Source of the DNA: Flavobacterium wongokense | Lineage (GTDB): Bacteria > Bacteroidota > Bacteroidia > Flavobacteriales > Flavobacteriaceae | NCBI RefSeq assembly: GCF_021608265.1 | Contig: NZ_JAKIHP010000005.1 | Location: 1-64,000, forward strand | Direction: 5' to 3' | Length of the DNA stretch: 64,000 nucleotides | The notes under the pieces: generated by a model | Told to the model about the DNA's origin: nothing | What the model saw: only the letters and a program-made list of their open reading frames with translations | Databases searched by the model: none | In this document: one piece after another, positions 53,392 through 56,669 of the stretch | Layout of the letters: the number at the start of each line of letters is the position of its first letter | Position numbering within the stretch: position 1 is the stretch's first letter | Position numbers and translations under genes: made by a program

Positions 53392-54744
53392 TTACATTAA
53401 CTGTTTAACTTCGTCAAAATTCAATCCGCCGTAATTACCCGAACTCATCAACAGCAAAGCTGAATTGTTCAAATCATAATTAAACAGGAAATCCTTGAAT
53501 TCTGCCGGATTGGTATAGATAATCAAATCATCGCGTTTGAATGACGCTGCAATCTGTTCATAGGTTATTTCCTCAAGCTGCTTGATCTTAACCGCATCAG
53601 GCGAATAGAACACCACAGCAACATCGGCAGCATTGAGTGCTCCTTCGTATTCTTTTAGGAATTCGGGATTGAGGCTGCTGTAGGTATGCAGTTCGAGGCA
53701 GGCGACCAATTTCCTATCGGGATATTGCGATTTTACAGCCTTAGTCGTTGCGGAAACCTTACTTGGCGAATGCGCAAAATCCTTGTACGCGACTTTTCCT
53801 TTTCCTTCGGCTATTTTCTCCAAACGTTTGCTGGCACCTTTGAAACTGGCAATGGCTTCATAGAAATCGGCTTCGTCGACACCCATGTTTTGGCAGATCC
53901 ATTTGGCTCCGGCCAGATTGTTCAGGTTGTGTGCACCAAAAACTTCAATTGGCATTGGACCTTCGGGAGTATCGAGTAAGGTTGTTCCGTCTTCAACGCT
54001 GTAACTTGGTGTTTTATAAGGAAGCCTACGAATGGTATTGGTGGTTTCTTCGGCTACTTTCTTAACGGTTTCGTCCTCTTCGTTATACACCAAAATACCG
54101 CCTTTGGTGATTTGGTTTACAAAGATTTCAAACTGCTCCACATAATTTTCAAAGGTCGGAAACACATTGATATGGTCCCACGCAATCCCGGAAAGCAAGG
54201 CAATATTAGGTTGGTATAAATGAAACTTCGGTCTTCTGTCAATGGGTGACGAAAGGTATTCATCGCCTTCCAAAACAATGAAGTCATTTTCGTGTGTTAG
54301 ATGTACCATCGTGTCAAAGCCTTCCAATTGGGCACCCACCATATAATCCACTTCGATGTTGTGGTAATGCATCACGTGCAGTATCATTGAAGTAATTGTG
54401 GTTTTTCCGTGTGAACCACCAATAACCACGCGGGTTTTGTTTTTGGATTGTTCGTATAGGAATTCGGGATAGGAATAGATTTTCAAACCCAATTCCTGTG
54501 CCTTCAGCAACTCGGGATTGTCTGCTTTGGCGTGCATTCCGAGGATGATGGCTTCGATATCTGAAGTGATTTTTTCGGGAAACCAGCCAAATTCTACGGG
54601 CAGTAATCCTTTCTTTTCCAATCGTGATTTTGAAGGTTCGAATATGGCGTCATCGCTTCCGGTGACCTGATATCCTTTATTGTGTAATGCCAAAGCTAAG
54701 TTGTGCATGGCTGCGCCACCAATGGCAATGAAATGAGTCCTCAT
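53392..54744 (-). CDS. mpl: UDP-MurNAc-tripeptide ligase Mpl (murein peptide recycling)
   Basis: A 450-residue Mur ligase. The N-terminal HFIAIGGAAMHNLA nucleotide-binding motif, the ATP-binding GGSHGKTTITSMI (about 108-120) and the central DFIVLEGDEYLSSPIDRRPKF, with LSGIAWDHINVFPTFENY, fit Mpl rather than MurC. C-terminal YKDFAHSPSKVSATTKAVK is the Mur-ligase C-domain motif. Mpl attaches recycled L-Ala-gamma-D-Glu-mDAP to UDP-MurNAc in the cytosol. Its ATG overlaps the stop of the TPR gene by one base. Confidence 0.92.
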   Translation of the reverse strand: MRTHFIAIGGAAMHNLALALHNKGYQVTGSDDAIFEPSKSRLEKKGLLPVEFGWFPEKITSDIEAIILGMHAKADNPELLKAQELGLKIYSYPEFLYEQSKNKTRVVIGGSHGKTTITSMILHVMHYHNIEVDYMVGAQLEGFDTMVHLTHENDFIVLEGDEYLSSPIDRRPKFHLYQPNIALLSGIAWDHINVFPTFENYVEQFEIFVNQITKGGILVYNEEDETVKKVAEETTNTIRRLPYKTPSYSVEDGTTLLDTPEGPMPIEVFGAHNLNNLAGAKWICQNMGVDEADFYEAIASFKGASKRLEKIAEGKGKVAYKDFAHSPSKVSATTKAVKSQYPDRKLVACLELHTYSSLNPEFLKEYEGALNAADVAVVFYSPDAVKIKQLEEITYEQIAASFKRDDLIIYTNPAEFKDFLFNYDLNNSALLLMSSGNYGGLNFDEVKQLM

Positions 54745-55442
54745 TATGATTTATTTCTTTCTTGATAATTTTCTAATACGGTTCGGGCTTTTTCAGGCTG
54801 GTTCATTTTATTTTTATATAAATCAGCCAGTTTTTGATAGGTAGTTTTAGAGCCACTAACGGCAATGGCGTTGCTGTACTGCTTTTCGGCATCCTTATAC
54901 CTTTTGAAATATTCAGCAATATGGCCTTTGGCAAGATAACCGTCGACAGGAGAAATCCTGAGCAGTTCGTTGGCATACCTTTCGGCTTTGCGTTCGCTTC
55001 CGCCAACGATTCCGGGTAACTGGAGGTATAATTCTATTAACGCCCAACGTGCTTCGATGTGTTTTGGATTGAGCTGGATTGCTTTTTCAAAAGAAGCTTT
55101 GATGTCGCCTATCATTCCGAGTGCCTTTAACTTATTGGAGTCTTTGGCCTTCATGCCGAGGCAGCCACCATACTTATAATGGTAATTGGCGTTAGCTGGA
55201 TTGAGGGTTTTTAGCCTGCTGTAATAGGACATTGCCTTGTCCCAGGATTTACTGTAGCCTTCGATGTCGCCTAGATATTCTAAGGCTTTAAGGTTTTTGG
55301 GATTCTCAACGATTATGTTTTCGAAGATTGGCTTTGCTGCATAGTAATTCCCCTGACTGAACAGCTTTTCCGCTTTCTCGAAACTGGTTTGGGAGAAAGC
55401 CATTATTGGCAGTGCTAAAAGAATGAGGAAGAATTTTGTCAT
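54744..55442 (-). CDS. Exported tetratricopeptide-repeat protein
   Basis: A 232-residue protein with a signal peptide (MTKFFLILLALPIMAFSQ). TPR-type helix pairs fill the rest, for example AEKLFSQGNYYAAKPIFENIIVENPKNLKALEYLG and KALGMIGDIKASFEKAIQLNPKHIEARWALIELYL, ending with PEKARTVLENYQERN. It is probably a periplasmic protein-interaction scaffold. It heads a two-gene unit with mpl, coupled by a TAATG overlap. An exact -7 box lies 20 bp upstream. Confidence 0.88.
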   Translation of the reverse strand: MTKFFLILLALPIMAFSQTSFEKAEKLFSQGNYYAAKPIFENIIVENPKNLKALEYLGDIEGYSKSWDKAMSYYSRLKTLNPANANYHYKYGGCLGMKAKDSNKLKALGMIGDIKASFEKAIQLNPKHIEARWALIELYLQLPGIVGGSERKAERYANELLRISPVDGYLAKGHIAEYFKRYKDAEKQYSNAIAVSGSKTTYQKLADLYKNKMNQPEKARTVLENYQERNKS

Positions 55443-55461
55443 TGGGTCACCTTCTATAAAG

Positions 55462-55469
55462 CAAATGTA
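55462..55469 (-). promoter_or_regulatory. Candidate -7 box of the TPR-mpl unit
   Basis: The minus strand reads TACATTTG, an exact TAnnTTTG match, 20 bp before the ATG at 55442. No exact TTG is found at -33. Confidence 0.5.
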
Positions 55470-55536
55470 GTTTTATTATTGGGATTTTGAAATATCCCCG
55501 CAGGAAAAAGAGTAGTGAGCCAAAGTTCTGATTGAA

Positions 55537-55643
55537 AAATTTTAACATTTCTGTGTCAAAATATCTTTTTTTTTAAAGTTTGCCACAAAAAGTGTGTCAA
55601 AATTATTTTTGCGAACAAATTTGACACAGAAATGTTAAAATTT
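55537..55643. repeat. 24-bp perfect inverted repeat with nested dyad
   Basis: The arms at 55537-55560 and 55620-55643 are exact reverse complements over 24 bp, separated by 59 bp. Inside lies a second dyad, TTTGCCACA (55579-55587) and TGTGTCAAA (55593-55601). The 9-bp half-site TGTGTCAAA thus occurs four times in alternating orientation with spacing 27, 14 and 27 bp, symmetric about the centre. Confidence 0.85.
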
Positions 55644-55768
55644 ACATTGGAATGGTCCAGAAATACCAGGTGCCGAAGCCACCGTAATGTGGGGTTTTCT
55701 TATTATTGGGGATTATTTTATATATTAGCGTGTAACTAAGTTAGCGGTAATCGAAAACCAACTCAATC

Positions 55769-56572
55769 ATGAAATACGAAACTCTAATTGTAAATGATTC
55801 TTCAGCAGGGGAAATGATGAAAGAATGTTATGATTTCTCATATAATATTCACAATTACAGAGATTTTATCGATACTCACAATGACTTCCCAGCTGAGAAA
55901 CCTCCGATTTGGATTAAGTTATATAAAGAGAAAGAATTTAATTCAGTCAATGATTTTGTTCATTCAGTTTATGATTTTATAATAAATGATAAGGTTAAAA
56001 ATATATTAGAAAAATATAACCTACCTATTCATGATTTTGTTCCCGTTGAAGTTTACAGAAAAGAAAAAACTCTTTTTAACAGCAAATTAGTGAGATACGA
56101 ATATCACTGGTTTAATCATAACGCTGATAATATTTCCAACTATTATGACTATATAGATTTTTCGAAAAGCGAAATAGGTTTTTCACGAAATGAAAATATA
56201 ATTGATTTAAAAATAAATTCTATATCAGACATTTATTCTATAAAAGAATCAAATAAAATAATTACATCCGAAATAAATGAATTGTATAAAACTCATTTAG
56301 GTGAGACTTCAATCATCAACAAAATGATTAGAGAAAAAGATTTGTATGCTATTAGTTGGCGGGCTGAAAAAATTGTGTTCAAAGAGAATTTTGATAAAGA
56401 ACTGGATCTTTTTTCTTTGCCTTTATTCTCAAGCAGAACTTATATTTCTCCAAGATTGAAAGAAGCGTTGATAGAAAATCAGGTTAAGGATATCTTGTTT
56501 AAGGAAACCGGAAACAATCCAGACAGAAGACATATTTTAAATCCAAAAATTGAAATCAGCGACTGCTACTAA
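55769..56572 (+). CDS. Orphan Imm11/DUF1629-like protein
   Basis: A 267-residue soluble protein, clearly more AT-rich than its neighbours and rich in Asn, Ile, Lys and Asp. The order of features (PPIWIKLY, HDFVPVEVYRKE, DYIDFSKSEIGFS, then LPLFSSRTYISPRLKEALIENQVKDILF) resembles the Imm11/DUF1629 immunity-protein fold, whose C-terminus typically reads like SxRLKEAL...GxxF. There is no signal peptide and no toxin gene beside it. The assignment is by pattern only, and another accessory function is possible. Composition and isolation suggest horizontal acquisition. Confidence 0.5.
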   Translation: MKYETLIVNDSSAGEMMKECYDFSYNIHNYRDFIDTHNDFPAEKPPIWIKLYKEKEFNSVNDFVHSVYDFIINDKVKNILEKYNLPIHDFVPVEVYRKEKTLFNSKLVRYEYHWFNHNADNISNYYDYIDFSKSEIGFSRNENIIDLKINSISDIYSIKESNKIITSEINELYKTHLGETSIINKMIREKDLYAISWRAEKIVFKENFDKELDLFSLPLFSSRTYISPRLKEALIENQVKDILFKETGNNPDRRHILNPKIEISDCY

Positions 56573-56618
56573 CAGCGATTTAAAGTAATATTTCATTTAT
56601 CTTTACCCTAAAACAAAA

Positions 56619-56650
56619 AAATCCGTCCCAACATACATCAGGACGGATTT
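56619..56650 (-). terminator. Terminator of the S46 peptidase gene
   Basis: A perfect 10-bp stem AAATCCGTCC/GGACGGATTT with a 12-nt loop is followed on the minus strand by TTTTTTTGTTTT. It could also stop the convergent Imm11-like transcript, but the plus-strand T-run is short. Confidence 0.85.
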
Positions 56651-56669
56651 CATTAACCTTAAATAATCA

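Follow-up and report, generated by a model that had tools for sequence, protein, structure and literature searches.

Controller (C) proteins of restriction-modification (R-M) systems are cro/CI-type helix-turn-helix (HTH) regulators of their own operon. In the class of C.Csp231I, according to the portions of the paper used here, the operators have four half-sites, palindromic and with A-rich 5-bp centres, and A/T tracts of about 18 bp lie between the dyads; the proteins carry extra C-terminal helices (PMC3115060). KfrA of plasmid RA3 is an alpha-helical autorepressor with an N-terminal HTH; it acts at an operator of repeats that covers the promoter of its own gene, and KfrC is its alpha-helical partner. 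The KfrA operator consists of five 9-nt repeats and, in the excerpts used, none is reported elsewhere on RA3 (PMC7783346). REPINs are palindromic elements scattered through a genome and linked to a single resident family of proteins, the RAYTs, as outlined in the parts of three papers used here (PMC3116915, PMC8049555, PMC8266576).

The element described here occupies positions 55537-55643 of the window (the whole stretch of 64,000 nucleotides that was analysed, from Flavobacterium wongokense). The draft assembly of this genome, G000, is 3.30 Mb in 32 contigs. Judging from its letters and those of related loci, we read the element, with a probability of about 0.77, as a dispersed four-half-site array of a cro/CI-type HTH coiled-coil system, with predicted binding of the HTH protein. 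Like the operators of the C.Csp231I class, the longer arrays found here (e.g. L091) use a 5/18 lattice; the window element takes another phase of the lattice, with one 5-bp-centred dyad flanked on either side, at 18 bp, by one half-site (compared with the same portions of PMC3115060). The HTH family differs from the C proteins in its longer coiled-coil tail, its sigma54-like promoter and its partner gene, in the extra dispersed arrays and in the other half-sites, and no R-M genes are seen at the G000 module. The best-ranked PDB matches of the HTH model in Foldseek are C.BclI and C.Kpn2I, at a non-significant E of about 0.1. The AlphaFold2 model of one family member (L173) resembles KfrA in its N-terminal HTH and long alpha-helical tail. 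Like KfrA/KfrC, the system has a pair of helical proteins, a likeness drawn from the description in those excerpts; the RA3 system differs in being plasmid-borne and, there, in an operator without dispersed copies (PMC7783346). Membership in the C-protein or KfrA kind is not claimed. Dispersed intergenic palindromic copies are a REP/REPIN trait, with three in G000 and 14 dispersed, aligned copies in another genome, G209. These copies resemble REPINs in habit and differ in machinery: the protein involved combines an HTH with a coiled coil and has no transposase family match in family scans, and PF01797 (Y1_Tnp) is absent from G000.

With dozens of natural protein-operator pairs, mostly from one genus, the system makes it possible to read and test how a cro/CI-type helix recognises DNA. 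It also provides a case in which the multiplication and scattering of a regulator's operators, as bare elements, can be put to the test. The odd palindrome of one window leads to a genus-level system with a well conserved, uncharacterised partner protein. Among the titles and abstract openings listed, no report of the array, the HTH family or the code was seen.

The window element

The outer arms (55537-55560 and 55620-55643) are 24 nt each, 100% complementary and 59 nt apart, which bears out the preliminary description of a 24-bp perfect inverted repeat around a second dyad. The left arm is AAATTTTAACATTTC followed by half-site s1, and the right arm is half-site s4 followed by GAAATGTTAAAATTT; TTTTAACATTTC on the left and AAATGTTAAAA on the right are invariant in five aligned copies. 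Half-sites s1 (TGTGTCAAA, 55552-55560, plus strand) and s2 (TTTGCCACA, on the minus strand TGTGGCAAA, 55579-55587) are separated by an AT-rich 18-bp spacer (55561-55578). The A-rich 5-bp centre of the inner dyad, AAAAG (55588-55592), stands between s2 and s3 (TGTGTCAAA, 55593-55601, plus strand), and a second AT-rich 18-bp spacer (55602-55619) leads to s4 (TTTGACACA, 55620-55628, minus strand). Recomputed from the half-site starts, the spacing is 27-14-27 as first reported, which leaves 18, 5 and 18 bp between neighbouring half-sites. The four had been described as one 9-bp word; all of them are present in alternating orientation, and s2, read on the minus strand, departs from TGTGTCAAA at one letter. 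Three of the cores are TGTGTC and one is TGTGGC. The two halves of the element also form a direct repeat (step 41 bp, 70% identity). The inner dyad (55579-55601) is the sole zero-mismatch match to TTTGNCACA-N5-TGTGNCAAA found in G000.

Copies in the genome and in relatives

The genome search envisaged in the preliminary description gave two more copies in G000: copy B (C27:53620-53729), 86% identical to the window copy (copy A), and copy C (C1:1240068-1240184), 77% identical. The flanks of the three are unrelated. Copy B sits between small cold-shock-like and dehydrogenase-like genes (names assigned by reading), and there is no HTH gene among the ORFs listed beside copy A or copy B. Copy C ends 5 bp upstream of the start codon of an HTH gene (C1:1239514-1240062), whose product of 182 aa (MKNTTIASLLG...) is a cro/CI-type HTH protein. 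A related Flavobacterium genome, G156, has one copy at the corresponding orthologous HTH gene and another elsewhere. The five aligned copies have the TTTTAACATTTC and AAATGTTAAAA arms and the half-site grid in common, with variable spacers. Terminal inverted repeats, a MITE trait, are present in all of them; no target-site duplication is seen by eye in the five, whose flanks are A/T-rich, in agreement with the earlier view of the borders. With up to three mismatches, the arm pattern matches seven times in G000; six of these are the three copies and the seventh has two mismatches. The same search of the draft contigs gave no autonomous element with the same ends. The early proposal of a MITE-like element holds in part: there are dispersed, sharply bounded copies, but neither a target duplication was seen in them nor an autonomous element in the draft contigs.

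A copy search in 60 relatives (E ≤ 1e-3) returned four genomes including G000 itself, with a full copy in none of the other three. The exact two-arm pattern had 0 matches in genome-contig and viral-contig collections, from which records close to this genome were possibly excluded. Thirteen candidate copy loci were read: two (in G156) are full copies, and L020, L021, L022 and L045 are arrays of related half-sites. The remaining candidates look like AT-rich chance matches, L019 being doubtful.

The likeliest cognate in G000 is the HTH protein downstream of copy C, which has the TTTTAACATTTC arms. The upstream half-site chain of this gene (L085) has only two members, and the locus is outside the 61 rows of the code described below. 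Its recognition helix is deviant (HPTQLSMYMCG, with R changed to P at position r1), and TGTGCT, TGTGGC and CGTGTC occur together in its own array; TGTGCT is also present in copy B. The helix of the G156 orthologue is NRSQWSMYESG. Judged by their letters, the window half-sites would suit the resident C1 helix less well than a helix of the RSQWSM..S type, of which the G156 orthologue has an example, and the window copy may therefore retain an older specificity and be partly orphaned. G000 holds two more HTH paralogues, L126 and L123 (C12:114064 and C23:21710), preceded by repeats of other half-sites (TGTGGCAA; a GTTTCAC/GTTGCA type in direct tandem). No partner gene was found within 12 kb around these two.

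The HTH family and its arrays

A profile built from eight proteins was searched against 398 genomes of the genus (E ≤ 1e-8), and the HTH family was found in 59 of them. The 250 bp before 80 members were inspected (81 loci, one too short; L078 is L090, counted twice). Alternating half-site chains of at least three occur in 54 of the 80 upstreams and of at least four in 38, compared with 12 and 1 in 400 dinucleotide shuffles; no chain of three or more is present in the other 26. A named collection of 39 HTH loci, mostly from Flavobacterium with some from other Bacteroidota MAGs, contained 16 repeats of known proteins; 12 of the 23 further loci have a chain of at least three and nine a chain of at least four. 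As control for these, upstreams of other ORFs in the loci (n = 144) gave chains of at least three in four cases and of at least four in none. The half-site is particular to each paralogue (TGTGGCAA, TGTGTCAA, TGTGACAA, TGTTTCAA, TGTTGCAA, TGTAGCAA, TGTGTGAA and others).

The exact dyad TTGNCACA-N5-TGTGNCAA occurs in 22 of the 398 genomes, a count that still includes the coding chance matches L076, L079 and L082, and the reversed control pattern in six. The HTH is found in 16 of these 22 and in 43 of the 376 others (p 3e-10); with the eight profile-seed genomes removed, it is found in 8 of 14 exact-dyad genomes (p 8e-5).

HTH_3 or HTH_19 scores over the curated cut-off for L044 (HTH_19, 35.9 versus 30.2) and L072 (HTH_3, 25.2 versus 23), and under it for L064, L075 and the C1 protein of G000 (HTH_3, 18.7 versus 23), which is 54% identical to L044. 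The AlphaFold2 model of L173, from Flavobacterium lotistagni, consists of the HTH and a long helical hairpin (pLDDT 90.3), with no Foldseek match at E ≤ 0.001. A PDB sequence search with the HTH profile gave two matches (E 0.006 and 0.01), and a search of phages with one member gave 0 matches. Two records titled Limnohabitans sp. MAG20 (L184 and L197) carry HTH members. Limnohabitans is a betaproteobacterium, and these contigs are probably mis-binned.

Recognition code

Positions in the predicted recognition helix are named r1 r2 r3 r4 r5 r6 r7 x r9, where the commonest residues are R S Q W S M Y E I/L/S; the half-site is written TGT-x4-x5-x6-AA. Of 65 arrays with chains of at least three, L090, L102, L135 and L158 were dropped (no GT in the expected place), leaving 61 rows; for L126 the consensus obtained is out of register, and this row is scored against the r1 rule. 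Tables are given in the order both, first only, second only, neither. With R at r1 and G at x4, A at r5 goes with A at x5 (10, 0, 0, 20), so that the letter is found in 10/10 rows against 0/20. In rows with R at r1, S at r5, G at x4 and G or T at x5, I or L at r9 goes with G at x5 (11, 1, 0, 7); x5 is G in 11 of 12 such rows and T in all seven rows with other r9 residues. Where x4 is G or T, A or G at r2 goes with T at x4 (14, 0, 2, 39; 14/14 against 2/41). L at r6 goes with A at x4 (4, 0, 0, 57; 4/4 against 0/57), and R at r1 with C at x6 (46, 2, 2, 11; 46/48 against 2/13). Fisher p values for the five pairings range from 1.6e-4 to 3e-11, and from 6e-4 to 3e-9 after thinning to one member per 60% cluster (52 rows); they are descriptive, since the rules were found on these same rows.

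A tree built without the helix columns gave 3, 2, 2, 1 and 5 independent pairs on supported branches. These pairs differ in the expected direction or do not differ, and none goes in the opposite direction; no set is large enough to reach 0.05 by itself. On a quick tree the half-site class changes at least 36 times. Two HTH genes fetched after the rules fit them: L247 (RGQ, I at r9; TGTTGC), the dyad of whose array had been seen before its protein, and L248 (L at r6, I at r9; TGTAGC). Because the half-site letters follow five residues of the recognition helix, the HTH-linked arrays are very probably operators, as predicted from these pairings. The preliminary description had raised a cooperative repressor operator: the arrays that precede HTH genes and the letters that follow the helix speak for the operator, with cooperativity and repression putative. 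A genome without an HTH hit, G091, has on its contig C3 (L020/L074; L020 1484-1747) a duplicated three-repeat cassette with a period of 146 and 84% matches; one copy has six TGTGGC half-sites and the other six TGTGAC.

Promoter and partner protein

Many HTH-linked arrays contain a sigma54-like element, TGGCA-N6-TTG[CT], the spacing of which is that of sigma54 -24/-12 promoters. It is present in 31 of 102 HTH upstreams, in 25 of these 23-45 bp before the start codon. The opposite strand has it in 2 of 102 and shuffles in 6 of 2040, a contrast inflated by the overlap of TGGCA with the half-site TGTGGCAA; the element occurs with other half-sites too (e.g. L104, L118 and L123). Of the three G000 copies, only the one at C1 (L085) has the element. 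G000 and three relatives tested have a sigma54 gene. Sigma54 regulation in Flavobacteriia is discussed in the portion of PMC12316311 used here.

A partner gene of 136-140 aa lies near the HTH gene, mostly just downstream, at 31 of the 81 loci and 23 of the 39. It was found in 45 of 398 genomes, of which 42 have the HTH; the other three are partial matches. The two members scanned gave no Pfam or NCBIfam match over the cut-off. The family model is a coiled-coil hairpin (pLDDT 90.1) with no Foldseek match at E ≤ 0.001. VIA-align of the HTH and partner models had generic coiled coils among the matches listed; the best Z values, 11.2 (rmsd 3.0, 117 aligned) and 12.5 (rmsd 2.1, 131 aligned), are treated as reflecting a common arrangement. 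A PDB sequence search with the partner found none below E 0.37, and one member had no match in 72,556 plasmid records.

The HTH-partner modules seen sit among varied genes. Ten neighbourhoods have no gene family in common beyond two-locus pairs and one repeat-protein cluster (5 of 13 loci compared). By reading, no R-M genes are found in 14 kb around the C1 gene of G000, and some ORFs in two of the ten neighbourhoods (L224 and L225) resemble type I R-M genes. PF01797 has 0 matches in G000, 0 in G406, 1 in G156, 3 in G091 and 6 in G202. A RAYT/REPIN system as direct explanation was rejected: the family is absent from G000, and the paired half-site is found at 0 of 10 Y1 loci in three relatives. 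Y1-transposase-like genes lie beside the HTH-partner module in G156 and G334 (L222 8502-9056 and L223 9170-9607); the G156 gene matches PF01797 and the G334 gene clusters with it by BLAST.

Dispersed arrays

The generic dyad pattern TTGNNACA-N5-TGTNNCAA has 145 matches in the 59 HTH genomes, a number that takes in the HTH-linked dyads, and its reversed form has 15. In a sample of 20 genomes without the HTH, either form has 8 matches. Three genomes outside this sample (G091, G406 and G418) have arrays and no HTH hit. Twenty-five array loci away from HTH genes were inspected, among them the window copy and the C27 copy. At L045 the array overlaps a doubtful ORF of 89 aa; the rest are intergenic, that is, between ORFs of 80 aa or more, some of them doubtful. 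Convergent ORFs flank 8 of the 23 with both neighbours known, and one of the 25 has a sigma54-like string, on the minus strand. The longer arrays reach chains of up to 10 half-sites. At L009 the chain reported belongs to a terminator and not to the array.

G209 has 17 exact dyads, one of them at its HTH. Fourteen dispersed copies of an element of about 77 bp were aligned there; their four-half-site core is 66-100% identical to that of L263 and their flanks 21-64%. The HTH of G209 at C8 also has a TGTGGCAA array. In G143 a dispersed copy resembles the upstream region of its own HTH. With half-site classes assigned manually, the class of dispersed arrays agrees with that of a resident HTH in 11 of 19 genome-class pairs (mean under permutation 6.7, P 0.02); an earlier test counted over arrays also gave 11 of 19 (P 0.08). 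A match between dispersed class and resident HTH specificity is suggestive only.

The window locus

As first described, the element lies between divergent genes: a TPR protein gene (54744-55442, minus strand; TPR_14, E 1.2e-12) and an Imm11-like gene (55769-56572, plus strand; PF07791, E 1.2e-5, over the cut-off). The distances to the start codons are 94 bp and 125 bp, respectively. TPR orthologues were located in 17 of 19 other genomes tested. The array is not conserved in the same intergenic region of these relatives: neither the arm motif nor a chain of four half-sites is found upstream of the TPR orthologue in any of the 17, and one has a chain of three half-sites with unrelated letters. 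No Imm11 match was found near these 17 orthologues (flanks of about 1.5 kb). An S46 peptidase gene lies about 200 bp from the TPR gene in G121 (L244) and G218 (L246). Since the two are that close there, the array and the Imm11-like gene resemble an extra segment of about 1 kb (55443-56669) between TPR gene and S46 peptidase. The window copy is best read as a dispersed site, and any effect on its neighbours is conjectural. The evidence to date does not support regulation of the TPR and Imm11-like genes by the element, as the 17 orthologues lack the array and the window copy lacks the sigma54-like promoter.

Proposed mode of action and alternatives

HTH dimers would bind pairs of half-sites, the members of a pair lying on either side of the 5-bp centre or else of an 18-bp spacer. 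With a period of 41 bp, or about four turns, consecutive sites would face the same side of the DNA and dimers could bind together, perhaps held to one another by the partner protein and their coiled coils. Where the array precedes the HTH gene, binding would overlap the promoter, giving autoregulation. At dispersed sites, including the window copy, the array would anchor the HTH protein or tie it up; anchoring or titration is the likeliest present role of the window copy. More tentatively, and against the odds as we judge them, the module of array, HTH with switchable code and partner might seed bare arrays without a transposase of its own, as a transposase-free counterpart of RAYT/REPIN or a re-specifying DNA-bridging system.

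The array could also serve as a local operator for the TPR gene, the Imm11-like gene or both, which would be compatible with the dispersed-array reading; its place between the two divergent starts suits this, its absence at all 17 TPR orthologues and the arrays between convergent ORFs elsewhere do not, and we consider it doubtful. An unlikely alternative is a REP/REPIN- or MITE-like mobile DNA hairpin whose ends are moved by a transposase in trans, with an incidental link to the protein. The perfect terminal repeats, the dispersed copies with unrelated flanks, the conserved core and divergent flanks of the 14 G209 copies and the Y1 transposase gene adjoining the G156 module would all agree with such a hairpin. 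It is hard to reconcile with the lack of PF01797 matches in G000, with an arm pattern matching just three copies and one weak site in the draft assembly, with the absence of a visible target duplication and with half-sites that track HTH residues, which a pure transposon hairpin does not predict. Mobility and a binding-site role are not exclusive.

That the window array is a relic, an operator that has outlasted an HTH gene once present at this site, we regard as quite improbable. The segment with the array and Imm11-like gene that is absent between TPR and S46 peptidase genes in G121 and G218, the three genomes with arrays and no HTH hit, and the better fit of the window half-sites to a G156-type HTH would be expected of a relic; copies A and B, however, have the same ends and are 86% identical, and the ORFs listed beside them include no HTH gene, the window copy lacks the sigma54-like promoter of many HTH-linked arrays, and in G209 it is the bare element that has multiplied. 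A stable RNA fold had been suggested from the start, and the predicted fold of 55520-55660 is indeed strong (-38.2 kcal/mol, z -5.06, with 0 of 200 shuffles equally stable); convergent ORFs around 8 of 23 dispersed arrays, some of these ORFs (≥80 aa) being doubtful, would also suit a hairpin that terminates transcription from both sides or stabilises mRNA. Such an RNA role is very improbable: the stem is AT-rich, Rfam has just weak miRNA-hairpin matches to the element, far below gathering scores, other arrays run to 10 half-sites, and the fold leaves the change of half-site letters with protein residues unexplained.

Adjacent strings

A REP-like string, GGTGCCGAAGCCACC (minus strand GGTGGCTTCGGCACC), lies at 55669-55683, 25 bp to the right of the window element. 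With up to three mismatches it has four matches in the window, against 0.48 expected. Strings like GGTGGTTTCGACTCCGCTCAACCAC adjoin some of the G209 copies (L262-L264).
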